From: Clostridia bacterium
Lineage (GTDB): Bacteria > Bacillota > Clostridia > Oscillospirales > Acutalibacteraceae
Assembly (NCBI GenBank): GCA_017502085.1
Contig: JAFVVQ010000018.1
Location: 1-39,141 of the forward strand
Length of the DNA stretch: 39,141 nt
Reading direction: 5' to 3'
Part shown: piece by piece, positions 4,966 through 18,048 of the stretch
Layout of the letters: each line of letters opens with the position of its first letter
How positions within the stretch are numbered: position 1 is the first letter of the stretch
Position numbers and translations under genes: made by a program
The notes under the pieces: generated by a model
What the model was told of the DNA's origin: nothing
Database searches by the model: none
What the model saw: the letters and a program-made list of their open reading frames with translations, nothing else

Positions 4966-5469
4966 TTACTTTTCACCGAATTTTAAAAATGAATTTCTGA
5001 ACGAATTAAATTTCCGTGAAGATATATAAACCGGATATTCTACGCTCTTGTATTTTACCTTTACCCACTCCCTTGTAACCTCATCGACATAATTAAGATT
5101 TACAATAAAACTGTGATGCGGTTGGGCAAATATTTTAAGGTCGAGAATACCTTTCCAATGGTCAAGTCGGTAGTTAGTTTCAATTTTTCTGTCAGTCAAA
5201 TACAATACAGATTTTCTGTCTTCAATTGCTATGTAAAGAATCTCGTGCGGGTAAATCCTGCAAACATCTTTATTGCTTGTTTGCACAATGATTCCTGAGT
5301 TGCAACAATATTTTTTGCAAGCGTTTTCTTCACCGCTGAAATCAAAACAAAATCTGTCACAGCCGCAACACTCGAGCAGATTATATGCAATATCATTTTG
5401 CTCCATAAATTCAATCAGTTTTGCTTTGGTTGCCTCCTTTTCTGCCGCACTGCATACTAAAAAACCCAT
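4966..5469 (-). CDS. LytTR transcriptional regulator with Cys-rich N-terminus
   Basis: This 167-residue protein ends in a LytTR DNA-binding domain (about 65-165: VCRIYPHEILYIAIEDRKSVLYL...FAQPHHSFIVNLNYVDEV). The N-terminus is not a receiver domain. It carries a Cys cluster (LECCGCDRFCFDF and ACKKYCC) that could bind metal or sense redox state (inference). I place the start at ATG 5469, which has GAGGAAGGTG five bases upstream; the earlier in-frame ATG at 5490 lacks a binding site. A degenerate copy of the ECF-type element lies at 5509-5548. Downstream is the DUF4041/GIY-YIG gene. Confidence 0.82.
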   Translation of the reverse strand: MGFLVCSAAEKEATKAKLIEFMEQNDIAYNLLECCGCDRFCFDFSGEENACKKYCCNSGIIVQTSNKDVCRIYPHEILYIAIEDRKSVLYLTDRKIETNYRLDHWKGILDLKIFAQPHHSFIVNLNYVDEVTREWVKVKYKSVEYPVYISSRKFNSFRNSFLKFGEK

Positions 5470-5508
5470 AAAAACACCTTCCTCATTCATAATACAGAAA
5501 TGAATTTC

Positions 5509-5739: not shown

Positions 5740-8219
5740 CTAATTTATTGACGGATTATAATTTTTGTCATCATTTGAGCAAACATTAAAAAGGAAACTT
5801 AAGCAACTGTAAGCATCTTCGTTTATCAAAGATTTATCGGATATAGAAGAAAATATGATTTTTGAAACAACATTATCATAATTATATACATCTTTTTTGG
5901 CGTACTCATAACTGTTAAAAGGAGAACTCAATGCCTCTTGTAAAAGAAGAATTGCTTCGCTATTCTCTTTAACATCTTTATAATCATTTATATTTGATTT
6001 ATGACACAATATAAGTGCGTGAGTATATTTTAAATGGGCTAATGATATCAAAATCTGTTCATTGCCGCTTTCAGTATATCTTTGTTCGAAAACTTGAATC
6101 GAAACATTGACATCTCTAAAAGCTTTATCAAGACACTCCATTTTTTTTAGTTGTTCTTTTTCAAAACGCGAAAGTCTTATATAGCACTTAGCTCTTTGAT
6201 GCATATAGTTAGGATCGACAGAAAGCAAGGAATTCAAACCATCATATATTGATTTTACAATCATTAAACTTTCTTTGCTGTTTGAGCAGCCCGTATTAAA
6301 AATACGATTGATATTGTCAAATAATATATAATCTTTATATGTTCCTTTTTTATTTACAGAATGAATATTGGGTCCTTGATCATTTTCAATTATTTTCTCA
6401 ATTAAATATTGATATGCAGAAACTATTTTGCTTAAATTCTGTGGTTTTCTGGCAAACATTGACAAATGACGGCAAAGCCAAAATTCTGCATTTAAAACAT
6501 ATTTATATGGAGAATTATTGCTTACATTTCTCTCGAAAGACCATGTTGCATCTATTTCTATTAATGGTGAAGAGATTTTCTTTTGAAGTTCCAATTCGTT
6601 ATGTATATCAAACATTACAGCTCTACTTGAATATATTTTGTGTTCTGTCGCCAGTGCAATTAGCGCTGCAAGCTGTTTCTGAGTATCTGTTTTAGGAATA
6701 ATAGAAGTGTATTTGCTTTTCTCATTTAAGCTATCACTTATATATAAGATATTGTCAAGAAGATTCTGTTTTTGTCTGAATACTCCCATATTTGTGGATG
6801 TCAGTAAAGGATTTATTCTATCAAGCTCAACTGTGTCAAATTTGTTTGAGATTTCAGTAACAGGGACATCTTTTTCGGAAATAATCTCTCTTTTTATGCA
6901 AAGCGATAATAGACCCAGTATATCGCGTTCACTTTTATTTATTGCAATAATTATTTTAATATTTTTCTTTTGAAGCCCGTCTATATTTTTTATAAGATAG
7001 TCGATTTGCGAAACAGAAAGCGAACTGCTATCGAATAGTATTACACTATTATTTTTTCCAAGCATTTGATAAAAGGCCTTTTCTGTTAGACTGTCTTTGG
7101 TTTGGAAAAGATAAGTATCTCTATCTTTGATTCTGGAAATAATGTCAAACAAAGTATATGTTTTTCCAGAGCAGCGCATTCCTAAAACAAATTGCAATGC
7201 ATATTGAGGGATATTTTTTATTATTTTGTCTGTATGGGTTCTTGATACAAAGAAATAGGGATATGTAACTTCATGATGTTTATCTAACAAGCTTTTTCCA
7301 TATAATAAATAATGTTTATTATCCTCATAATTATCAAGACATTTTTTAAATGAAAAATGTTTGTATTTTTCTAATTCATCGTTACATATTTTTTGTGATT
7401 CAAGTCCTAAGGCATGCAATTCTTCGTATATAGAATCAAAAGAATCAAAAACAACACAATGTGTTATACCATATCTTTTTAGATTGATTTCTTGTAAAAT
7501 AGATGGTTTTTGAGTTACACAAACATACCTTTTTACAACGCTTGAGGTTTTAGGCGAAGATTGCACGGATAACAAATCCAATTCATCGTCCAAACTACAA
7601 CCAATATAAATTAAATTCTGACATAAACTATCATGCTTTAACATTTGTAATAAAAAAGTGTTGTTTGACAAACTATCAACATACTGTTTTCTTGAAAAAA
7701 TTTCACTTTTATCATCTTGATATTTTATCATCTCCCACACATCTCCATGAATTTTAATAAGACATTTTTCTGTGTTGAAAATATGTTCTTCGACTTCGCG
7801 ATTACTGCAAATGACACAATTAAAATTACTGTTTTTTTCAATGCCATCATCAACGTTGAGGGTATAGATATATGGCCAATCCAACGACAAAAACTTTTTT
7901 TGTTTTCTTGTATGGATACATTTATAAAATTATCATATAAATATTTTCTTCGAGTATCTTTATCTGTTAGTTCAAAATATATATCACATATAGTCGAAAA
8001 GGACTGCTTTATTAGCGTTTCTTTATCTTCTTCATTAAATTTTTGGCTTTCAAGTAATTGATTAATCATATGTTGACTGTAATCTTCACCGGATGGAACT
8101 TTTCCATTTGTACTTGGACAATTCCGTGTGAATCCAGAACCTAATATCGGTATTAGGGTTCTTCTTTTAAGATTTGATAAAAGTTCTTCTTTAACTTCAG
8201 AAAAATTTACTGTTTCCAT
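5740..8219 (-). CDS. SIR2-P-loop NTPase (Avs5-like) defence protein, frameshifted
   Basis: Two overlapping frames (8219-7728 and 7890-5740) join into one protein of about 826 residues if one base is added at the A7 run at 7895-7901. The N-terminus is a SIR2-type NAD-binding fold: LIPILGSGFTRN, then across the shift YIYTLNVDDGIE, the HGD motif near residue 158 (LIKIHGDVW), and YIGCSLDDEL. A P-loop NTPase follows, with Walker A GMRCSGKT at about 347-354 and Walker B SVILFDSS near 395. The helical C-terminus looks repeat-like. SIR2 plus STAND-type NTPase is the architecture of Avs5 antiphage proteins, where SIR2 depletes NAD+. The assignment to Avs5 itself is an inference. The gene has GGAGGG before ATG 8219, its own promoter, and is visibly more AT-rich than its neighbours, suggesting transfer. 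As written it is broken, unless frameshifting rescues it. Confidence 0.75.
7895..7901 (-). other. A7 frameshift site inside the SIR2 gene
   Basis: On the coding strand the run is AAC AAA AAA AGT in the upstream frame. The downstream SIR2 frame reads AAA AAG TTT TTG. One extra A, or a -1 slip on A7, joins the frames at about residue 108, in the middle of the SIR2 domain. A sequencing or assembly indel, a true null mutation, and programmed or transcriptional slippage all fit. Confidence 0.75.
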
Positions 8220-8302: not shown

Positions 8303-8380
8303 AAAGGTTCAAAATGCAACAGACATTTCAAAAATGTGAGTTTTTTTAACAAAAATGTTACTTTTATGTGTTACAAGCAA

Positions 8381-8544: not shown

Positions 8545-9288
8545 TTACATTTTCTTCGCTTTGACAATCAGGAAGTTAGGTTTGATATACTCCTTTACCC
8601 ATGCAGGTACTTTTTCGATTACCCATTCTTCGGGTGTGGGTTCGCAGACTTCTTCGATAACGAAACCTGCTTTGGCAAGTGCGTTGATAATGTTGCTGAA
8701 AGTGCGGTGATATTTTATTACGCCGTCAACGTACCAATGAATTTTGCGTTCGCCGGGTTGGTTGTAGTTTGAAAAAGTATAAGAAACTTTTTCGCCGTTT
8801 TCGTTCTTATTGAAATGGCCTGCACCGTCAACGGTTGAGGTGATGATCGGATGTTCCTGCGAAAACAAAAGCTGACCGCCTTCGCTCAGAACGGAATACA
8901 TATCCTTTGCGAAAGTATCAAAATCTTTAACATAATGAAAAGCAAGTGAGCTGTAAATGAAATCAAACTTTTCGTCAAGATTTGAAATATCCGTCATACT
9001 CATATTGCGGTATTCAATTTTGCTGTGTGCGGATTCTTCTTTTGCAACGGCAAGCATCTTTTCGGATATATCAATGCCGACAACCCTCGTTGCACCTCTG
9101 TTTACGAAATCGATGCAGTTATGACCGTAACCGCAGCCCAGATCAAGAACGGATTTGCCGTTCAAATCGGGCAGAAGTCTACGCATTGCAGGTTGTTCAA
9201 TTAAATCATTGGCGTTGCAATCGCTGTCACGCAGCGCCTTGTAGCCGCTGAAAAATGTTTTGTTGTCAAATATGTTTTGTCTACTCAT
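8545..9288 (-). CDS. Class I SAM-dependent methyltransferase (Methyltransf_11 type)
   Basis: This 247-residue soluble methyltransferase has motif I VLDLGCGYGHNCIDF (about 45-59), the acidic post-I residue in VVGIDISEKML, and motif IV-like FDFIYSSLAFHYV. This is the Rossmann fold that binds S-adenosylmethionine. The substrate cannot be read from sequence. The C-terminal half (SQEHPIITSTVDG, IHWYVDGVIKYHRTFSNIINAL, CEPTPEEW) resembles common small-molecule methyltransferases of Firmicutes. ATG 9288 has AAGGT upstream, nine bases after the histidine phosphatase stop, so the two genes form an operon. Confidence 0.9.
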   Translation of the reverse strand: MSRQNIFDNKTFFSGYKALRDSDCNANDLIEQPAMRRLLPDLNGKSVLDLGCGYGHNCIDFVNRGATRVVGIDISEKMLAVAKEESAHSKIEYRNMSMTDISNLDEKFDFIYSSLAFHYVKDFDTFAKDMYSVLSEGGQLLFSQEHPIITSTVDGAGHFNKNENGEKVSYTFSNYNQPGERKIHWYVDGVIKYHRTFSNIINALAKAGFVIEEVCEPTPEEWVIEKVPAWVKEYIKPNFLIVKAKKM

Positions 9289-9297
9289 AATTTTACC

Positions 9298-9900
9298 TTA
9301 AATTCCTTTGGTGTGTTCGTCAAAATTCGCTTTGATAACCCGTCTTTCTCTGTCTGTCAAACTCCAGATATGAATACCTGTGTCGGCGGTGTTGAAGAAA
9401 TAAATGCAATCAACGGGCATATTGAAGAATGAACGGTAAAGCTGATTTATCATTCCGCCGTGCGAAACAACAGCAATGGTTTCGTCATTCTCAGCTTCAT
9501 TCATAATTCTTGAAAGCGCATTCTCTGCCCTTTGTCTGAACTCGACCTGAGATTCCTGACCGTAAACTGCTTTGTCAATCGGCAAATCGAGAACTTCAGG
9601 ATATTTCTCTCTTACTACTGCTCGGGGTAACCCTGCAAGAAGTCCGTTATTGAACTCCATCAAGTTCTCATCAAAAACAATAGAAATCCCGGTTTTGTCG
9701 GATAAATGCTGTGCTGTCTGTTTTGCTCTTGTCAATGTGCTTGCATATATTTTGGAAATATCATAATTATCGGCAACATAATTTGCCATAGCTTCAGCTT
9801 GTCTGTGACCTCTTTCGGTTAATGCAAAATCTGCTCTGCCTTCGTGAACATCAAGCAAATCTGCTTCGGATTCACCGTGACGGATTACAAGTAATTTCAT
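9298..9900 (-). CDS. Histidine phosphatase (phosphoglycerate mutase-like) family protein
   Basis: This 200-residue protein of the histidine phosphatase superfamily begins LLVIRHGESEAD, where the RHG histidine is the phosphate acceptor. It also has the second-half motif VVSHGGMINQL carrying the other catalytic histidine. The arginine and glutamate of TLTRAKQTA and MEFNNGLLAG fit the family. Members dephosphorylate metabolites such as sugar phosphates; the substrate here is unknown. I start at ATG 9900, which follows AAAGGGGTTGATAC, rather than at an upstream in-frame ATG at 9936 that has no binding site. It is the first gene of a two-gene unit with the methyltransferase. Confidence 0.9.
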   Translation of the reverse strand: MKLLVIRHGESEADLLDVHEGRADFALTERGHRQAEAMANYVADNYDISKIYASTLTRAKQTAQHLSDKTGISIVFDENLMEFNNGLLAGLPRAVVREKYPEVLDLPIDKAVYGQESQVEFRQRAENALSRIMNEAENDETIAVVSHGGMINQLYRSFFNMPVDCIYFFNTADTGIHIWSLTDRERRVIKANFDEHTKGI

Positions 9901-9958
9901 TGTATCAACCCCTTTAAATCTGTTTTTATTATACACTACTTATTTTCTGTATGCAACA

Positions 9959-10942: not shown

Positions 10943-11494
10943 TCACAAGTATTTCTGCATATAAACCAAGTTCTGATATGTACCGTCTTTGAGTTTGCAA
11001 TAATTCGGTTTGATGCAGGTGACTTTAAAACCGAATTTTTCGTAGAGTGCTTTTGCTCTGTCGTTGCCCTCAATAAAATCAAGCTCAACAATTTCTGTGC
11101 CTTCGTGATTTTGGGAGGCTTCAATAAGTGCCTCAAACATTGCGGAGCCGATGCCGAGATTCCAATATTTTTTTGTTATGGATATGCCCAATCCCGCACG
11201 GTGAAAGCTTTTACAACCGTTGAAGAACGTTATATCACAGCATCCGACGGGTCTGCCGTCTATGTAACACGCAATCACGAGGTTATTTTCAGATTCACGC
11301 TTACTGCGTATCCATTCTTTCTCTCTTTCGATTGAAATATTATCCCAATATTCTTTGTAATGGGACAGAAACTCTGTTTCACCGCAAGCGGTTTTGATGT
11401 TTTCAAGCATAGCTTCGGCATCTTCAATGCAAGGAGTTTTCAGAATTGCTTGCTGGCCGTTTTTAAGAATTATTATCTTTTCATCAAATATCAT
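10943..11494 (-). CDS. GNAT-family N-acetyltransferase
   Basis: This 183-residue acetyltransferase has a complete GNAT fold: GRPVGCCDITFFN, the hydrophobic AGLGISITKKYWNLGIGSAMFEALIE strand with the acetyl-CoA Q/RxxGxG/A-type loop (NLGIGSA), and the C-terminal DRAKALYEKFGFKV. The substrate is unknown. I start at ATG 11494, one base after the stop of the ABC transporter gene; a longer frame extends back into the transporter gene and is not real. It is the last gene of the transporter operon, so it may modify the exported compound or protect against it (inference). Confidence 0.88.
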   Translation of the reverse strand: MIFDEKIIILKNGQQAILKTPCIEDAEAMLENIKTACGETEFLSHYKEYWDNISIEREKEWIRSKRESENNLVIACYIDGRPVGCCDITFFNGCKSFHRAGLGISITKKYWNLGIGSAMFEALIEASQNHEGTEIVELDFIEGNDRAKALYEKFGFKVTCIKPNYCKLKDGTYQNLVYMQKYL

Positions 11495-11495
11495 A

Positions 11496-13385
11496 TTATT
11501 CACCATCTTTTTCTGTGTTTTCGGCATAATACTGCGCCTGTGCGTTCCAGAGCTCGGAGTATTTGCCGTTTGTATTTTCGAGGAGTTCTTCGTGAGTGCC
11601 TTCCTGAATAACTTTGCCGTTGTCGAAAACAACAATTCTGCTGCAGAAACGGCAGGATGAAAGTCTGTGGGAGATGTAGACCGCTGTTTTGCCGCCTGCG
11701 ATTTCATTGAATCTTGAATATATTTCGCTTTCGGCAATGGGATCAAGTGCGGCGGTGGGTTCGTCAAGAATAACAAACGGTGCATCCTTATATAGTGCTC
11801 TCGCAATGGCGATTTTTTGTTCTTCACCGCCCGAAAGATCGATGCCGTCTTTTTCATATAGTTTATAGATTGACTGTTTCAGCTTCTTCGGGAATTCTTC
11901 AACTCTGTCTTTTACACCTGCCATTTCAAGGCATTGCCATACTCTTTCTTCATCGTATTCATCGGAGCAGGCAACGTTTTCGCCCACGGGGAATGCAAGG
12001 AGCTTGAAATCCTGAAAGACGATTGCGAAAAGATTCAAGTATTCGGCATAGTCAAACTCACGGATGTCAATTCCGTTGAGCGTGATTCTTCCTTCGGTGG
12101 GGTCATAAAGACGGCAAAGGAGCTTTATCATCGTTGATTTACCGCTGCCGTTCATACCGACAACCGCAAGCCTTTCGCCCGACTTAATCTTCATACTGAA
12201 ATTCTTTAATATCATCGGTTCGGTTTCGGGATAGGCAAACGAAACATTGTGAAATTCAAAAACAGAGTTTGCAGGGTCGATACCGTCAACAGTTTTTGTG
12301 CCGTTTTCCATATCGGAAACGAGATTCAGATATTCGATTTCCTGCTTTAACTGAGCATTATTTGCGTGCAGATAACCTGCGTTGCCCGCAATATCCGTGC
12401 AAGCGGTTATCAGTTTTGTGATTGCGCCATAATATTCAACAACCTTGCCTGCACCGAATGCACCTGCAAGCGCTTTGAGTCCGACGAAAATATAAACAAG
12501 ACCGCCGAGCAGATTTGTTGAAATCGTGCTTACCTGACCGATGGTTGCCCAGACTCTGAAAGTATCCTTTCTCATCTTTGCGGTGGGGTTATAAATCTTT
12601 TCGGTAATTTCTTCGTTGATAAGTCCTTTTTCGTTGAAAATACGGACATCCTTGCCGCTTTCGTTTTCGTTGAGATATTTCTGATTGTAGTATTCAAGAA
12701 TCGGATTGAATTTCACAACTCTGTTGAAAATATTGAACTGCTTTTTCTCGCTCAGACTGTGATACTTAACCGAAAGCGCAATCATAACGGCAGAGAAAAT
12801 AACAAGCGACATACCGAGCAGGGGCGAATCAACAAACGCCATAAATCCCGTAAGCTTTGCAGGCGATTTGCTGAAAACCATACCCGAAATCATAACAATT
12901 GCAACGATAATTGAGAAAACGCAGGATATCATTTCTGCTACACATTCGGCAACCCAAGTAAGACCGTTGCCGTTGTTTGCATTTTCTTCGATTTTTCCTC
13001 GAAGTTCCTGAACGGATGAGCTTTCCGCCTTTGCATAGTCGAGTTCAAGAGCCTTTCGGGAGAGAAGTGCAGAGTGCTTTTCCCAACAGCTGTTGAGCAT
13101 TATCAAGGCTTTTCGGTTGATTGTTCGGATGATAACGTCAATAACGAGTGTTGTGATTGTTGCGATGAGAACGTATTTCAATATCTGCTCAAAGCCATGC
13201 TTTTCGGTGAGTGCAGTGATAACAAGACCCGTGCAGTAAATTGTGATATAAGGCGTAACGGCACGGAGAATTTTTACGATGAGATTTAATGAAAAATAGT
13301 TTTTGCCGAGATAGATTTTAACAAGCTTCAAGCCTTGTCTGATTATTTCAAAATCCTCTTTAAAGCCTGTGAAAAAGTTCTTCAT
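11496..13385 (-). CDS. ABC exporter half-transporter B (TMD-NBD fusion)
   Basis: This 629-residue protein has an N-terminal six-helix exporter membrane domain (about 1-350) and a C-terminal ATPase. The ATPase shows Walker A VGMNGSGKST, signature LSGGEEQKIAIARAL, Walker B FVILDEPTAALD and H-loop YISHRLSS. All catalytic elements look intact. No C39 peptidase domain is present, so it would not cleave a leader itself. Its ATG overlaps the stop of the preceding half-transporter (ATGA at 13382-13385), which indicates a heterodimer. The operon lies behind a LytTR-type operator, so it is probably induced by the adjacent sensor system. The substrate is unknown; peptides or lipophilic compounds are typical. 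Confidence 0.92.
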   Translation of the reverse strand: MKNFFTGFKEDFEIIRQGLKLVKIYLGKNYFSLNLIVKILRAVTPYITIYCTGLVITALTEKHGFEQILKYVLIATITTLVIDVIIRTINRKALIMLNSCWEKHSALLSRKALELDYAKAESSSVQELRGKIEENANNGNGLTWVAECVAEMISCVFSIIVAIVMISGMVFSKSPAKLTGFMAFVDSPLLGMSLVIFSAVMIALSVKYHSLSEKKQFNIFNRVVKFNPILEYYNQKYLNENESGKDVRIFNEKGLINEEITEKIYNPTAKMRKDTFRVWATIGQVSTISTNLLGGLVYIFVGLKALAGAFGAGKVVEYYGAITKLITACTDIAGNAGYLHANNAQLKQEIEYLNLVSDMENGTKTVDGIDPANSVFEFHNVSFAYPETEPMILKNFSMKIKSGERLAVVGMNGSGKSTMIKLLCRLYDPTEGRITLNGIDIREFDYAEYLNLFAIVFQDFKLLAFPVGENVACSDEYDEERVWQCLEMAGVKDRVEEFPKKLKQSIYKLYEKDGIDLSGGEEQKIAIARALYKDAPFVILDEPTAALDPIAESEIYSRFNEIAGGKTAVYISHRLSSCRFCSRIVVFDNGKVIQEGTHEELLENTNGKYSELWNAQAQYYAENTEKDGE

Positions 13386-15190
13386 ATAATCGCCTCCTCT
13401 CTGTAATATCGGCTCTGTGTTTCAAACATTTCGGCGTATTTGCCACCGAGTTCAAGCAATTCCTCGTGAGTTCCCATTTCGGCAATTTTCGCATCGTCAA
13501 GAAGAATGATTCTATCGCAGAAACGGGTTGACGAAAGTCTGTGGGATATGTAAATTGCGGTTTTATCTTTTGTAAGCTCGCTGTATTTGAGATACATATC
13601 GTTTTCTGCAATGGGGTCGAGTGCGGCAGTCGGCTCGTCAAGAATGATTATCGGAGCATCTTTATAAAGTGCCCTTGCAAGCAGAAGTCTTTGAAGCTCA
13701 CCGCCCGAAAACGCAACCGCACCTTCGTGAACTTCACGGACAAGCAGAGTGTTTTCTTTCTGCGGCAGACTTTCAACCTTATCGAGTATTCCTGCAAGCC
13801 TCATACATTCACGGAGTCTTTTGCGGTCAATTTTGCTTTCCTCGCAGAGTGCGATATTCTTTGCGACTGTTGCAGGCAGCAACGCACAATCCTGAAAGAG
13901 CGTCGAGAACAGCTGATAGTATTCGTCACGGTTGAAAAGTCGGCTGTCAATGCCGTTAATGAGAATCTGACCCTCGTTCGGAATGAACAGACCGCAGATG
14001 AGTTTAACAAGCGTTGATTTGCCTGCACCGTTAACCCCGACAATCGCAATTCTTTCGCCTTTGTTTATTCTGAGCGAAAGATTATCAACCGAAGGCTTTT
14101 CGGTTTCGTCATAAGAGAAAGTGAGATTCTTTATCTCGATTTCGCAGGGCAAATCCTTGCCTGACGGCAGCTTTTCGCCCTCTTTGGTGTTCATTTTATC
14201 CTCGATATCAAGGAAACCTCTGAAATCGCTGACGTTGTGTGCGCCCGAAATGATTTCGGAAATTGAGTCAACAAGCTTTGCAAGCCACTGACCGAATCCC
14301 GTTATCGCACCGAAATACAGAGAAAAATCGCCGAGTGTCATCTCAGAATTGAGCTTCAGATAAATAAGATAGATATATGCGCCAAGGCTTACGCCGAATT
14401 TAAAAACATCTTCAAGCATGCAGTTGAAGTAGTGACCGTTGTTCCTTTTGATGTTCCACCAATTTGCATCGTCAAGGTGCTTATCAATTTTTCTCATTAG
14501 GAAGTCGGACATATTGTAAATGCGCACGTCCTTTGCATTTGAAAAATCCTTTGAACGGTAGGTGACGTAGTGCAGGCGAAGGAAGATTTCGGCAACCTTG
14601 TCCTTCATTTTTTCTTTCCATTTGTTGAAAATCAGCCAACCTGCCATGCTGATGCCGTAGCAGAGAATAAGAATGGGGATAAACCACGGATTGCATTCAA
14701 CGATGATTGCCGTGAATGCCGTAAAGCCGAAAGCAGAGGATGCAACAGTTGCATTAAGCTCAATGAATCTTGCAACGCTTCCGTCCCAGCCGTGAATTGC
14801 ATTCCACGCTTTTTCACGCAGAACACGGGTTTCGTTGTAGGTGTAGTTGTTATAGTCCATACTCATAACCTTGTTGCAGATGAGTCTGTGGAGCATAATA
14901 TCCCTTGCAAGCATTCGTCCCTGCCAGCTTTTGTTATACATAACGTTATTCAGATATCCGAACATAATGAGCAGAGCAGAAAGAATACCGACTTTGAGAA
15001 GAAGCTCCGAAGCAGGTGTTTTGTTTTCAACGCAGTCGAGAACGATTTTTGGCAGATATGCCGCCACAATCGAGCTTACAGCGCCCAGCGGAGTCAGACC
15101 GATTTGCATAATCACATAGGATTTATCAAAACCCCAATGCTCTTTCAGCATAAATTTTAAGTTGCTGAAATAATTATATTTTTTCTTCAC
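13382..15190 (-). CDS. ABC exporter half-transporter A (TMD-NBD fusion)
   Basis: This 602-residue half-transporter has membrane helices in about residues 20-320 and an ATPase with VGVNGAGKST, FSGGELQRLLLARAL, IIILDEPTAALDP and YISHRLSS. The GTG start at 15190 overlaps the stop of the small membrane protein gene (GTGA) and follows AGGAGGG. The longer in-frame extension upstream runs through that gene and is rejected. It pairs with the next gene to form a heterodimeric exporter. Both ATPase sites keep a glutamate after Walker B, so there is no obvious degenerate site of the kind seen in some heterodimers. Confidence 0.92.
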   Translation of the reverse strand: MKKKYNYFSNLKFMLKEHWGFDKSYVIMQIGLTPLGAVSSIVAAYLPKIVLDCVENKTPASELLLKVGILSALLIMFGYLNNVMYNKSWQGRMLARDIMLHRLICNKVMSMDYNNYTYNETRVLREKAWNAIHGWDGSVARFIELNATVASSAFGFTAFTAIIVECNPWFIPILILCYGISMAGWLIFNKWKEKMKDKVAEIFLRLHYVTYRSKDFSNAKDVRIYNMSDFLMRKIDKHLDDANWWNIKRNNGHYFNCMLEDVFKFGVSLGAYIYLIYLKLNSEMTLGDFSLYFGAITGFGQWLAKLVDSISEIISGAHNVSDFRGFLDIEDKMNTKEGEKLPSGKDLPCEIEIKNLTFSYDETEKPSVDNLSLRINKGERIAIVGVNGAGKSTLVKLICGLFIPNEGQILINGIDSRLFNRDEYYQLFSTLFQDCALLPATVAKNIALCEESKIDRKRLRECMRLAGILDKVESLPQKENTLLVREVHEGAVAFSGGELQRLLLARALYKDAPIIILDEPTAALDPIAENDMYLKYSELTKDKTAIYISHRLSSTRFCDRIILLDDAKIAEMGTHEELLELGGKYAEMFETQSRYYREEAII

Positions 15191-15465
15191 ACGCTTTCCC
15201 TCCTGATAAGTGAAATGATTATTGAAACGATAACAGCGCAAATGACAAGATAAATAAATGCGCCCGTTGATTCCCGAAGTGCCGCAACGGCACAACCGAG
15301 CAAAACCAAGCCTATAGCAATGAAGTATCCGCCGAGAATTTTGTATCTTTCGGAATTTTTACACATTATATTAACGAAGGCTTTGAGCTTATTGCGGCAA
15401 ATCGAAATTCCGAGTGCGGAATGAATAACCGCAGAAATCAAAGCAACGATTGAATAGTATTTCAT
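15187..15465 (-). CDS. Small three-helix membrane protein
   Basis: This 92-residue protein has about three hydrophobic helices (near 4-20, 42-60 and 66-86) and a short basic C-terminus (IRRESV). I do not recognise the family. ATG 15465 has AAAAGGAGG upstream, and the stop overlaps the start of ABC half-transporter A, so it is the first gene of the LytTR-controlled transporter operon. It could be an accessory subunit, an immunity protein or a signal-processing partner; the sequence does not decide between these. Confidence 0.72.
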   Translation of the reverse strand: MKYYSIVALISAVIHSALGISICRNKLKAFVNIMCKNSERYKILGGYFIAIGLVLLGCAVAALRESTGAFIYLVICAVIVSIIISLIRRESV

Positions 15466-15530: not shown

Positions 15531-15559
15531 ATGATAAATTAAAAATCAAATGATTGAAA
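15531..15559 (-). promoter_or_regulatory. Candidate activator-dependent promoter of the transporter operon
   Basis: Minus-strand TATCAT (15531-15536), matching five of six -10 positions, lies 17 bases from TTTCAA (15554-15559), a poor -35. A poor -35 next to the operator at 15569-15598 fits a promoter that needs the LytTR activator. The exact hexamers are uncertain. Confidence 0.4.
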
Positions 15560-15568
15560 TACGCTCTG

Positions 15569-15598
15569 CAATAGTGTGGATTTAATGTTCAAAAGTGT
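15569..15598 (-). promoter_or_regulatory. LytTR-type direct-repeat operator 2 (transporter operon)
   Basis: On the minus strand ACACTTTTG (15590-15598), 12 bases, then ACACTATTG (15569-15577). The nine-base boxes repeat every 21 bp, the spacing of AgrA/ComE-type LytTR sites, and match the form ACAnTTnnG. They overlap the last codons and stop of the kinase gene and face the transporter operon. The first box is identical to both boxes of operator 1 at 17845-17874. Confidence 0.65.
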
Positions 15599-16883
15599 TG
15601 CAGATATTTATACTGGCGGTGAATATATTTCCCTCGCAGGAAACGAAAACATCGCCGTCATATTTCTGTGCAATCGTTTTTATGCTCTTGAGTCCGTAGC
15701 CGTGATTGAGCTTATCGGCTTTTGCCGTGCCGATATGCTTTGTGTCAACCTGCGATTCAACGGGATTCTCAACGGAAACAACGATTCTGCCGCCCATTGT
15801 AATAATGCTTGCAAAAATCGTTTTCTCCGTGCCGTTTCCGAGACCCTCTGCAGCTTCAATCGCATTGTCAAGTGCGTTGCCGATAAGTACGCCGAGCTCA
15901 AGCAAATCAACATTGATTTTATCCGAAATTTTAACCGAATAATCGAGTGTTATTCCCTTGCTTTCGGCAATGGCGAGTTTGGATTGAAGAACGGCATCAA
16001 CTGCGGGGTTGCCCGAATTTATAACACCGTTGTTTGCTTCATCAAGAAAATCCACTTCGCCCTTTATTGCATCAATGGCAGACTGAGTCTGACCGTCTGC
16101 GAGAAGTCCCGAAACGGAAAGCAATTTGTTTTTTATATCATGTCTGAAAGTGCGGATTTCGCTCTGATAGCGATAAAGCTCCTCATAGTGAGCAAGCTGA
16201 TTTTTGATTTGTTCGTTGGCAAAACCAAGCTTTGCCTTTGATTCAACATAGTCCTTTTGTCTGTAAATAAGAAAGAGGGTAACTAAGTTTGCTGCAATCA
16301 TAAGAATTGCAACAGCAGAGAATAAAATCGCCGGAATACTATCAAGTTCGTAGGTGCATTTAAGAATAACAAGTGTAACAAAAACGGTTGCGATCGGCTG
16401 AATTATGAGCAATGCCGAAAGGCCGCCGGAAACACCTAGGTCAATTTTGCCTATTTTCTTTGAAACAAAGAAGATAAGGAAAAACGCAAAGAATTTGCAT
16501 ATAAGTCCCATTCCGAGAAAGATTTCATCATTCTGAAGAAAATCAAGAGACTCTTCGCCCATAAGCATTCCGCTCAAAAGTGTGACTATTGTTTCTGAAC
16601 CTGCCTGAATCATAACGAAAAGAACACTGCTGATAATGGCAAAATGCACTTTTACTCTGTAAACAAGAGCAAAAACGAATGCCGTAACAACGCCCAAAGC
16701 AAGAAGCATAATGCCCGTGCCTGCAAAGAAATATGAAACAACGGTATTGACCGTTATTGCTACACTCATAAATATTGCAAGATGTGCTCCTTTGAGTTTT
16801 CTTTTTGAAATGTTTGAAAAAAGAATATCCATTGTGTATATTTCAAAGCAAGCAAACAGAAAATAAGCAATTATTCTTACCAT
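15582..16883 (-). CDS. AgrC-like GHKL sensor histidine kinase
   Basis: This 433-residue membrane kinase has about six hydrophobic segments in residues 1-215. A coiled stretch and the phospho-acceptor box TFRHDIKNKLLSVSGLL follow. The HATPase_c_5 domain has the N box LGVLIGNALDNAIEAAEG and the G box NHGYGLKSIK. This is the AgrC/ComD/BlpH class that senses peptides through its membrane domain and phosphorylates a LytTR response regulator. Its ATG lies one base after the response regulator stop, so the two are a matched pair. The ligand cannot be read from the kinase sequence. The 24-codon ORF at 17689 is the nearest candidate. Confidence 0.92.
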   Translation of the reverse strand: MVRIIAYFLFACFEIYTMDILFSNISKRKLKGAHLAIFMSVAITVNTVVSYFFAGTGIMLLALGVVTAFVFALVYRVKVHFAIISSVLFVMIQAGSETIVTLLSGMLMGEESLDFLQNDEIFLGMGLICKFFAFFLIFFVSKKIGKIDLGVSGGLSALLIIQPIATVFVTLVILKCTYELDSIPAILFSAVAILMIAANLVTLFLIYRQKDYVESKAKLGFANEQIKNQLAHYEELYRYQSEIRTFRHDIKNKLLSVSGLLADGQTQSAIDAIKGEVDFLDEANNGVINSGNPAVDAVLQSKLAIAESKGITLDYSVKISDKINVDLLELGVLIGNALDNAIEAAEGLGNGTEKTIFASIITMGGRIVVSVENPVESQVDTKHIGTAKADKLNHGYGLKSIKTIAQKYDGDVFVSCEGNIFTASINICNTFEH

Positions 16884-16884
16884 T

Positions 16885-17595
16885 TCACCAGCCCCACTTT
16901 CTGATAAAAATATCGTACGCCTTCAATGCTTCCTGCTTCTTCCGAACGCTGACGGCAACTTTTGAACCGTCGGTCAGTTCAACCTCGTTTGCATTGAAGC
17001 TTTTTATGTAGTTCATATTAACGATGAACCCCTGATGAACACGAACAAATCCGTGCGGTTTCAGAATTTCGTATATCTCCGAAATTTTACCCACAGCCTC
17101 GTAAACACCGCTTGCGGTATGCACGGTCAGATGTCTGCGGTAACCCTCAACATAGCTTATTTTATTAATGGAAATTTTGTTTCGCACGCTTTCCCATTTC
17201 AGAATAACGCTCGCATTTGTTGCGGTGTATTTTTTCATCGCTCTTGTGAAAACTTCAGCAAATTCTTTTTCTTTGATCGGCTTCACAAGAAAATGCAGAG
17301 CCTCGATTCTGAACGCGTCAAAGATGTAACTTGAATGGCCCGAAACAAAAATAATAATCGTTTCGGGTGCAAATTCTCTTATTGTTTCGGCAGCTTCAAC
17401 GCCGTTGATACCGCCCATCTCAATGTCGATAAAAACAATATCAAAGCATCCGCCGTTTTTATATAATTCAATCAAATCTTCACCGCAGGAGAAATCGGAA
17501 ATGTCAAAACCGTCATCTTCGGTACGGAACGGCTCGAGCAGATTTCTGATTTCTCTCACGGCAAAACAGTCATCGTCACAAATACAGATTTTCAT
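16885..17595 (-). CDS. LytTR-family response regulator (AgrA/ComE type)
   Basis: This 236-residue response regulator has a receiver domain (1-120) with acidic pocket CICDDD, phospho-acceptor aspartate in VFIDIEMGG, the FVSGHSSY switch threonine/serine position and the KPI lysine. The C-terminal LytTR DNA-binding domain (about 135-235) contains ISYVEGYRRHLTVH and FVRVHQGFIVNMNYI. I start at ATG 17595, which has GTGAGG upstream; the TTG at 17613 is poorer. It probably activates its own operon and the ABC transporter operon through the paired boxes at 17845-17874 and 15569-15598. It is separated from its promoter by a 24-codon ORF and a terminator hairpin. Confidence 0.92.
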   Translation of the reverse strand: MKICICDDDCFAVREIRNLLEPFRTEDDGFDISDFSCGEDLIELYKNGGCFDIVFIDIEMGGINGVEAAETIREFAPETIIIFVSGHSSYIFDAFRIEALHFLVKPIKEKEFAEVFTRAMKKYTATNASVILKWESVRNKISINKISYVEGYRRHLTVHTASGVYEAVGKISEIYEILKPHGFVRVHQGFIVNMNYIKSFNANEVELTDGSKVAVSVRKKQEALKAYDIFIRKWGW

Positions 17596-17618
17596 ATTAT
17601 CCTCACAATTCAAATTAT

Positions 17619-17661
17619 TGAAATAAAAAATAAAAACACTTCCGTTTGCATTCGGAAGTGT
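17619..17661 (-). terminator. Terminator between the micro-ORF and the response regulator gene
   Basis: ACACTTCCG (17636-17644) and CGGAAGTGT (17653-17661) form a perfect 9-bp stem with an eight-base loop. On the minus strand it runs into TTTTTATTTTTT. It sits within the sensor transcript, after the micro-ORF and before the response regulator, so regulator and kinase would be made by readthrough. Confidence 0.85.
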
Positions 17662-17688
17662 CTGAAAAATGCAGATAAATTTATTCTG

Positions 17689-17763
17689 TCAACACAGCAT
17701 GGCAGACAAAACGACACTTCGATTCAAAACGTTCTGCATCACATCATTCTTTCTGTTTGTCAT
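17689..17763 (-). CDS. Candidate 24-residue peptide (signal or leader) ahead of LytTR/AgrC genes
   Basis: This is a 24-codon ORF, starting MTNRKNDV and ending VVLSAMLC, with a polar basic first half and a hydrophobic second half that ends in cysteine. ATG 17763 follows GGCAGGTGG with five bases between. A perfect-spacing sigma-A promoter begins the transcript only about 27 bases upstream, and an intrinsic terminator follows the stop. This layout would give a short abundant transcript encoding only the peptide. It is not AgrD-like (no acidic tail, no AgrB nearby), nor does it show a double-Gly leader. It may be a secreted signal, a leader peptide controlling readthrough, or chance. Confidence 0.45.
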   Translation of the reverse strand: MTNRKNDVMQNVLNRSVVLSAMLC

Positions 17764-17797
17764 TTTATCCACCTGCCTTTCTTTAAAATTTTTCTAT

Positions 17798-17826
17798 ATT
17801 CTAACAATACAAAACAAATTTGTCAA
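17798..17826 (-). promoter_or_regulatory. Promoter of the peptide/response-regulator/kinase operon
   Basis: On the minus strand TTGACA (17821-17826), 17 bases, then TAGAAT (17798-17803). Transcription should start near 17790. The paired LytTR boxes begin 18 bases upstream of the -35 hexamer. Confidence 0.8.
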
Positions 17827-17844
17827 CCGTTTTCTCCGATTGTG

Positions 17845-17874
17845 CAAAAGTGTTGATTTTAAATGCAAAAGTGT
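17845..17874 (-). promoter_or_regulatory. LytTR-type direct-repeat operator 1 (sensor operon)
   Basis: On the minus strand two identical boxes ACACTTTTG lie at 17866-17874 and 17845-17853, separated by 12 bases. The identity extends to a 12-base repeat (17843-17854 and 17864-17875) with a 21-bp period. This is the spacing of known AgrA/ComE-class LytTR operators. The promoter is immediately downstream. Confidence 0.75.
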
Positions 17875-18048
17875 TTGGAAAGACTGTTATATTTCCGAAT
17901 GGCGCACTTCTATACATATCCTGACGGAATGTAAAGTGCGCAGCCCCGCTGATAAAAAATCAAAGATTTTAAACAAGGGTTTTACCCTTGCGTTGTAGAA
18001 CGACTATCCCAATTTTTTATATTATAATTTAAGCCCAACGGGCGCAGC

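Follow-up and report, generated by a model that had tools for sequence, protein, structure and literature searches.

The stretch of DNA considered here, called the window in what follows, comprises the 39,141 nucleotides of contig JAFVVQ010000018.1 (assembly GCA_017502085.1) of a Clostridia bacterium belonging to the Acutalibacteraceae. Its minus strand carries a sensor operon, made of a response regulator with a LytTR domain and a GHKL kinase, and an operon coding for a small membrane protein, two halves of an ABC exporter and a GNAT acetyltransferase. The preliminary description of this region had proposed that two matched LytTR operators define a closed circuit going from sensor to exporter. 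There is more to it: between the promoter of the sensor operon and its first gene lies a leader with a short open reading frame (ORF) and a terminator, apparently an undescribed RNA switch, and we may understand the ensemble as a lock that requires two keys, activation by the LytTR regulator and antitermination at the leader by a stalled ribosome, an interpretation to which we give a probability of roughly 0.7. The boxes and their conservation, the anatomy of the leader, the conservation of its frame and the complementarity that makes up both its first stem (P1) and its antiterminator are shown by the sequences.

At the level of DNA we infer phosphorylation, binding and activation: the regulator, presumably phosphorylated by the neighbouring kinase, would bind the box pairs and activate both the sensor promoter (from site 1) and the operon of the small membrane protein and exporter (from site 2). 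At the level of RNA, where translation of the ORF and the nature of the stalling signal are inferred in the same manner, each transcript initiated at the sensor promoter would have to traverse a leader-peptide attenuator. If no ribosome came, P1 would form, the antiterminator segment would be tied up and the terminator would form; a freely moving ribosome would cover that segment, and the terminator would form again. A ribosome arrested on the start codon or close to it would keep P1 open and leave the segment free to pair with the 5′ arm of the terminator, letting transcription proceed, and a ribosome held at the stop codon might, less clearly, create the same on state. What such a leader would sense is slowed translation, most likely the result of ribosome-targeting compounds, and the same leader in relatives, accompanied or not by a LytTR operator, would gate GNATs, exporters and other resistance-like genes.

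The leader and its predicted switch

The leader of the window, taken over 162 nt, folds with an energy of -48.9 kcal/mol (z = -4.84; none of 200 shuffles is as good). The region of its Shine–Dalgarno (SD) sequence and start codon pairs over 16 bases with the 3′ end of the very ORF that it commands, forming P1, and a three-way switch is predicted between P1, an antiterminator (the ORF segment beside P1 with the 5′ arm of the terminator) and the terminator itself. We find a short ORF with its SD and an intrinsic terminator before the main gene, as in ribosome-mediated attenuators, while the mutually exclusive terminator, antiterminator and anti-antiterminator are present as predicted pairings, backed by a shuffle control of the duplex and by mask folding with a high background. 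Folded with the place of a ribosome masked, the window leader forms P1 if nothing is masked, the antiterminator if the start codon is masked, and no antiterminator if the mask is placed in the middle or at the stop codon. Rfam 15 has no match at the gathering score in the window and ten leader loci; at E ≤ 5, between positions 15400 and 18100, it returns only mir-1 (E 0.33), on the opposite strand and outside the leader, which we take as chance.

Five close relatives carry the leader, in two sequence classes, class B having one more GNAT gene between leader and regulator. When 300 genomes of the family were scanned with a pattern (six with a match), the leader turned up in other genera, ahead of GNATs and of a GrpB-like gene and without the regulator. 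An exact DNA pattern retrieved 65 stretches with 66 matches, from records mostly titled Clostridia or Oscillospiraceae, many of them with a ruminant-gut source and all 65 titled metagenome-assembled genome, uncultured or Candidatus. A covariance model built from ten leaders has matches in 21 of 45 genomes of the same genus and in 61 of 398 genomes of the family (35 of 135 genera; up to five per genome), some of the weakest family matches being due to chance since the threshold was E ≤ 0.01 per genome. At the level of the class nine genomes out of 391, including that of the window, have matches at E ≤ 1e-4; judged by eye, L213, L214 and L216 seem to be genuine, while L217, L219 and L220 look like a terminator alone. 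Viral contigs gave no match to the exact pattern, which does not fit the window's own leader either, and a plasmid collection had none to the leader region of the window; phage records were not part of these searches.

The leaders compared below come from all pattern loci but L194 (64 of 65; 64 of 73 matches used, a cut-off match in L152 and eight weak ones having been dropped), from a second set, of which 40 of 45 were used, and from 57 covariance-model loci, that is 161 in total and 135 distinct, reduced to 130 by removal of the weak L066, L068, L071, L146 and L147. The set covers those matches of the covariance model whose loci came with the search or were retrieved afterwards. For the antiterminator, 16 more were set aside (P1 score below 11, no terminator by script, or a duplicate segment), leaving 114.

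In ten sequences, 149 of the 150 cells of P1 are paired, and when P1 and terminator are taken together, 94.9% of positions pair, against 41–56% in slid controls. Because P1 served to find the loci, it is partly present by design, which does not apply to the frame. Each of the 66 pattern matches, which represent 49 distinct sequences, has a length divisible by three, although any length in range was allowed (18 of 54, 35 of 57, three of 60, one of 66 and nine of 72). Likewise the distance d, which sets the frame from the ATG to P1, equals 1 modulo 3 in 118 of the 130 leaders, over ten lengths (31, 34, 37, 40, 46, 52, 55, 61, 64 and 85), and in 55 of the 67 found by the covariance model only. 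Among the 12 that depart from this frame, five form a group, VL-x-P, with P1 in another register and a constant frame of its own (lengths 36, 39 and 48), V-L being encoded in four of them and E-L in L110; two (L135, L137) have one more base in the start spacer; and L064, L069, L070, L078 and L138 fit neither case. In 116 of 130 leaders the last nine residues include a C-terminal motif, [VILFAT][LM]S, a count to be read knowing that the P1 strands were partly used in finding the loci, and a stop codon follows L-S after two to four codons in 114 of the 118 leaders having the motif. The ORF is mostly 16–35 codons long, and the terminator comes after the stop in those leaders whose layout was read. 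In the pair L117/L132 a paired change in P1 is also synonymous (TTG to TTA).

The duplex between the ORF segment just before the 3′ strand of P1 and the 5′ arm of the terminator has a mean energy of -12.9 kcal/mol, against -6.7 kcal/mol when ORF segments are shuffled, and at most five of 100 shuffles equal it in 91 of the 114 leaders. In 112 of 114, 0–5 nt separate the end of the pairing from that of the region, so that it abuts P1, and some leaders have matched changes in both partners (CGGAG/CTCCG, CGAAG/CTTCG). In mask folding, done with the RNA cut before the 3′ arm of the terminator, the antiterminator forms in 110 of the 114 when the start codon is masked, in 32 without a mask, in one when the segment itself is masked and in 74 when the stop codon is.

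The LytTR operators and the genes they precede

The preliminary description placed two box pairs on the minus strand, on either side of a LytTR regulator gene; both are exact, with a period of 21 bp, and the protein encoded between them does have a receiver and a LytTR domain (Table 1). The TTGACA of the sensor promoter begins 18 nt downstream of the second box of site 1, which thus has the layout defined for LytTR operators in PMC11347149, namely direct repeats of about 9 bp, 10–13 bp apart, upstream of a -35 element; at site 2 the promoter is weak and was assigned by eye, its region being similar in relatives. Site 2 overlaps the final codons of the kinase gene and is oriented toward the operon of the small membrane protein, the ABC proteins and the GNAT. 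With up to three mismatches the window contains four pair matches, one of which overlaps site 1, where 0.14 are expected, and none of 100 shuffles reaches four. The search of the host genome that had been called for (2.63 Mb, 84.5% complete) yields seven matches at this tolerance and 11 for a reversed-pattern control, so that matches with three mismatches are noise; the three best in the genome (0, 1 and 2 mismatches) all lie in the window. A search of the genome finds four LytTR domains, of which the window contains two.

In five relatives of the same genus, whose regulators are 96–98% identical, both pairs are kept at the same places with all boxes exact. Site 2 is also exact, with diverged spacers, in two species of one other genus (G176, G418) and two of a second one (G360, G119), where it comes directly after the stop codon of the regulator with no kinase match in between; the coding of a kinase is thereby ruled out as the cause of its conservation. 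Altogether site 2 is exact at ten of the 15 regulator-bearing loci of which the downstream side was examined (the window, L029–L033, L049, L239, L240 and L241, the last four being those of the two other genera) and not at L034, L035, L036, L242 and L243; it is present at nine of 11 exporter loci. At L240 it precedes a different small membrane-type protein, and no exporter was found within the 6.6 kb examined. More distant members of the genus, G016 and G017 (regulator 55% identical), have a site-1-like pair before the regulator without a leader, and no exporter in the stretch examined, while G033 (44%) has two CACTTTTG boxes with a period of 21 bp in the opposite orientation, next to a promoter. 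Single-domain LytTR genes of relatives have a pair upstream of their promoter in all seven cases read (eight were listed in the genus scan): L069, L070 and L233–L237 score 10, 10, 10, 12, 11, 12 and 11 out of 12, a score of 10 being not rare by chance. L069 and L070 match the leader model, and the other five show a short ORF and a hairpin by eye. Since pairs precede the regulator operon in relatives as well as these single-domain genes, the natural reading of the sequences is that the LytTR protein would autoregulate its own operon.

Operator and leader are linked in a recurrent way. A pair scoring at least 11 of 12 is found within the 150 nt upstream of 26 of the 130 leaders, in 25 of the 26 at -89 to -94 from the leader start, when 100 shuffles by two-base blocks give a mean of 0.12 and a maximum of one. 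Of these box-bearing leaders we read ten as parts of regulator operons and 14 as preceding other genes; the remaining two, L079 and L134, stand at contig ends. A second leader of the window's own genome (L075; C62) has no boxes (best 8 of 12) and precedes a protein that looks by eye to be of P-loop type. Downstream genes, missing as ORFs of 75 aa in 11 of the 130 cases, number 119 and fall into 35 clusters, 20 of which had a representative submitted to Pfam. GNAT-like representatives head clusters of 38, 11, three, two and one members, and a sixth cluster, of six, resembles the GNAT of the window; a cluster of 13 unites relatives of the window regulator with orphan LytTR genes. Others include ABC and MFS exporters, a histidine phosphatase, a methyltransferase, peptidase S66, GrpB and an HNH protein, the phosphatase and methyltransferase being of kinds also present in the window.

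The link from sensor to exporter announced in the preliminary description is therefore retained in part: autoregulation is the natural reading and site 2 is kept with the small-membrane-protein and exporter operon. The circuit is neither complete nor closed: its first promoter feeds an attenuator before any gene, the operator also serves, in relatives, unlinked leaders that precede other genes, GNATs among them, four species from two other genera lack a kinase gene after the regulator, and some genomes (see below) have box-bearing leaders without a close relative of the window LytTR domain. The leader, the hairpin downstream of site 2 and a third box pair had gone unmentioned. That circuit is one member of a larger regulon, and the two-site operator becomes a regulon that can be tested.

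Table 1. Elements of the sensor and exporter region of the window
Feature	Positions	Strand	Remarks
Site 1, LytTR box pair, ACACTTTTG-N12-ACACTTTTG	17845-17874	minus	pattern match; kept in relatives
Sensor promoter, sigma-70-like, TTGACA-17-TAGAAT	17826-17798	minus	11 of 12 consensus positions
Leader RNA (SD/start region, short ORF, P1, antiterminator segment, terminator)	17631-17781	minus
P1 5′ strand, part of SD and start codon	17758-17773	minus
Leader ORF, 24 codons, MTNRKNDVMQNVLNRSVVLSAMLC	17689-17763	minus	own SD; frame kept across leader family
Antiterminator segment, CGAAGTGTC	17713-17721	minus	complementary to terminator 5′ arm
P1 3′ strand, codons V-V-L-S-A	17701-17716	minus
Leader intrinsic terminator	17634-17663	minus
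Response regulator, receiver and LytTR domains	16885-17595	minus	PF00072 5.8e-19; PF04397 2.9e-17
GHKL sensor kinase, FRHD box	15582-16883	minus	AgrC-like, yet far under the cut-off of the AgrC model
Site 2, LytTR box pair, ACACTTTTG-N12-ACACTATTG	15569-15598	minus	pattern match; kept in relatives
Putative site-2 promoter, TTTCAA-17-TATCAT	15531-15559	minus	weak; assigned by eye, unreported by promoter scan
Intrinsic-terminator-like hairpin between site 2 and exporter operon	15521-15495	minus
92-aa protein, membrane-type by eye	15187-15465	minus	without Pfam or NCBIfam match
ABC exporter half 1	13382-15190	minus	GTG start picked by eye
ABC exporter half 2	11496-13385	minus
GNAT acetyltransferase	10943-11494	minus	start set by similarity to G033 homologue
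Third, weak box pair, ACATTTTTG-N12-ACATTTTTG	8329-8358	minus	role doubtful

Several features of the surroundings deserve a word. Just upstream of site 1 there is a 58-bp imperfect inverted repeat (17893-17950), perhaps a terminator or a small repeat, partly present at the same place in L029 and L032. L030 and L033 have insertions of about 250–400 bp, possibly small mobile repeats, between site 2 and the exporter operon. At L243 (G364), around position 324, a box pair followed by TATAAT stands between leader and regulator gene, the order of operator and leader being rearranged. Downstream of the exporter and GNAT operon, on the minus strand (8545-9936), are the genes for a methyltransferase and a histidine phosphatase, likely homologues of which are preceded elsewhere by the leader.

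Weighing the alternatives

A number of observations go against the interpretation in terms of two keys. Many leaders are related copies, so that the counts are not independent. Variation in P1 is one-sided, a change on both sides occurring in none of the 15 pairs of the first ten sequences. The interior of the ORF displays no excess of synonymous changes (synonymous/non-synonymous: 17/149 for d = 52, 56/231 for d = 37 and 6/10 for d = 34), so that frame, C-terminus and position of the stop alone look selected. L064, L078 and L138 keep P1 in another frame. The background of mask folding is high: with the start codon masked, the antiterminator also forms in 299 of 570 shuffled leaders, and the duplex test therefore outranks it as evidence. 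The exporter loci L036 and L243 have no site 2 (no pair of at least 11 of 12). Finally, box-bearing leaders occur in six genomes where the window LytTR domain has no close relative: G009, G018 (95% complete) and G026 have no LytTR match at E ≤ 1e-6, and in G010, G061 (99% complete) and G328 matches are at most 33% identical; another LytTR protein may read the operator in these six, or the operator may be a relic.

The explanation that competes best, yet an unlikely one in our view, is that the nascent chain itself does the stalling, V-L-S being part of an arrest peptide that would act near the C-terminus or the stop codon rather than through a ribosome held at the start codon. TnaC and the Erm leaders are arrest peptides of this kind. 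That V-L-S is located near the C-terminus of a peptide with a variable N-terminal part, with the stop so regularly placed behind it, speaks for such a role, as does the expectation that most of the 3′ strand of P1 would be hidden under a ribosome standing at the stop, with an antiterminator predicted in 74 of 114 leaders. The codons of V-L-S, however, form P1, so that their conservation cannot separate selection on the peptide from selection on the RNA, and pairing may suffice to explain it; the stop-codon mask gives no antiterminator in the window leader, whereas the start-codon mask does so in 110 of 114 (with the background just cited).

Considerably less probable is a structured RNA without any translated ORF, a ligand- or protein-binding attenuator in which P1 and the terminator would make the switch and the ORF would be incidental. 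It would account well for the maintenance of P1 where the frame of the peptide is lost (L064, L138, L078) or where its sequence has changed, in the VL-x-P group and in L117/L132. It fits poorly with a frame from ATG to P1 kept over ten lengths and in every pattern match, with the separate constant frame of the VL-x-P group and its persistent V-L, and with the regular position of the stop; nor is the loop conserved in the way a ligand pocket would be.

The third box pair invites the idea, rather improbable as things stand, that an Avs5-like defence gene belongs to the same regulon. This pair is the third-best match of the genome and lies about 110 bp before the start of that gene, but its boxes are T-rich, no convincing promoter is seen at the spacing of site 1 or site 2, a looser pair pattern is expected about once per genome (an estimate), and an orphan LytTR gene further downstream could use the pair instead. 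The Avs5-like gene (SIR2/STAND; 5740-8219, minus strand) is split into two ORFs matching successive parts of NF041814, as the result of either a disruption or a sequencing error. The orphan LytTR-domain protein (4966-5490, minus strand), encoded downstream of it, has a Cys-rich N-terminal part by eye, and visual inspection of the 260 bases upstream of its gene revealed neither box pair nor leader.

We reject as main explanation, and hold least probable of all, a LytTR circuit alone in which the leader ORF would encode a secreted precursor of the AgrD or pheromone type, followed by an ordinary terminator letting some transcripts through: the 24-aa ORF does come first in an operon, beside an AgrC-like kinase and a pair of ABC exporters, but the peptide has no NCBIfam match, the NCBIfam matches listed for the proteins of the operon and for the leader peptide include neither AgrB nor AgrD (a search for agr quorum sensing that did not extend to the rest of the genome), the leader also precedes GNATs and other genes without a kinase, including its second copy in the same genome, and the conserved C-terminus is encoded by the 3′ strand of P1 whereas the variable interior carries no sign of coding selection.

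We return to the interpretation that combines LytTR activation with a stalled ribosome. If it is correct that the leader answers ribosome-targeting drugs, it would mark candidate genes of intrinsic resistance in gut Clostridia, GNATs, exporters, peptidase S66 and methyltransferases, and the window would provide a compact AND-logic between a two-component system and the ribosome. A broader proposal, which we make tentatively and for which we would not quite lay even odds, is that there exists in gut Clostridia a widespread, undescribed class of leaders, in which the start of an ORF pairs with its own last codons, acting as a portable sensor of translation stress before dozens of unrelated detoxification genes; a subset would have been fused to a LytTR operator, creating a regulon whose opening would require an extracellular signal and stalled ribosomes at the same time.

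Comparison with known systems

Among open-licence papers, which make for weak evidence of absence, we found none joining LytTR regulation with leader-peptide attenuation, and nothing resembling the window leader, including in PMC4191407, PMC2965389, PMC8632094 and PMC11109978. The ilvB and hflX motifs share with our family a conserved upstream ORF (uORF). In the ilvB motif P1 holds the antiterminator sequence and P2 is the terminator, while the hflX motif (uORFC-6-1) resembles antibiotic leader peptides; both are found exclusively or chiefly upstream of a single gene, in Corynebacterium and Bacillales, and we set them apart on the basis of their descriptions, not of their sequences (PMC11109978, PMC8632094).

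As to the operators, the LRS of Streptococcus mutans and the regulators of AgrA/ComE type are described with direct repeat pairs of about 9 bp, mostly with a 12-bp spacer, upstream of the -35 element, as in the window, and with positive autoregulation in the case of LRS. LRS differ by a strong bias for 10 nt to the -35, where the pair of the window stands at 18 nt and is followed by an attenuator (PMC6193735, PMC11347149). An LRS combines a single-domain LytTR regulator, autoregulated through direct repeats, with a membrane partner that inhibits it; the window regulator has a receiver domain and is therefore not of this type, while the orphan LytTR genes of relatives do have the repeats.

For the RNA, toiL, the uORF of topAI-yjhQ in E. 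coli, is reported to sense several classes of antibiotics, with tetracycline stalling at its start codon, and it resembles the window leader as a uORF whose stalled ribosomes rearrange, here by prediction, the leader RNA; unlike the latter, it acts on translation and on termination by Rho instead of on an intrinsic terminator (PMC12121999). The BmrB leader of bmrBCD in Bacillus subtilis is a small ORF before a drug-exporter operon, and its effect was measured experimentally, whereas that of the window leader is predicted. BmrB is 53 aa long and its ORF contains the terminator (PMC4191407), where the present family mostly has 16–35 codons with, in the leaders whose layout was read, the terminator after the stop; also unlike BmrB, the anti-antiterminator of this family joins the end of the ORF to its own SD and start region, and the leader is found again ahead of many families of genes. 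Both have a predicted terminator, antiterminator and anti-antiterminator, and both have a second control, at the level of DNA, on the same promoter, exerted at BmrB by AbrB (PMC4191407). In its logic, including the stacking of a control of transcription on attenuation, BmrB is, by analogy, the closest known system to the one that we propose for the window.

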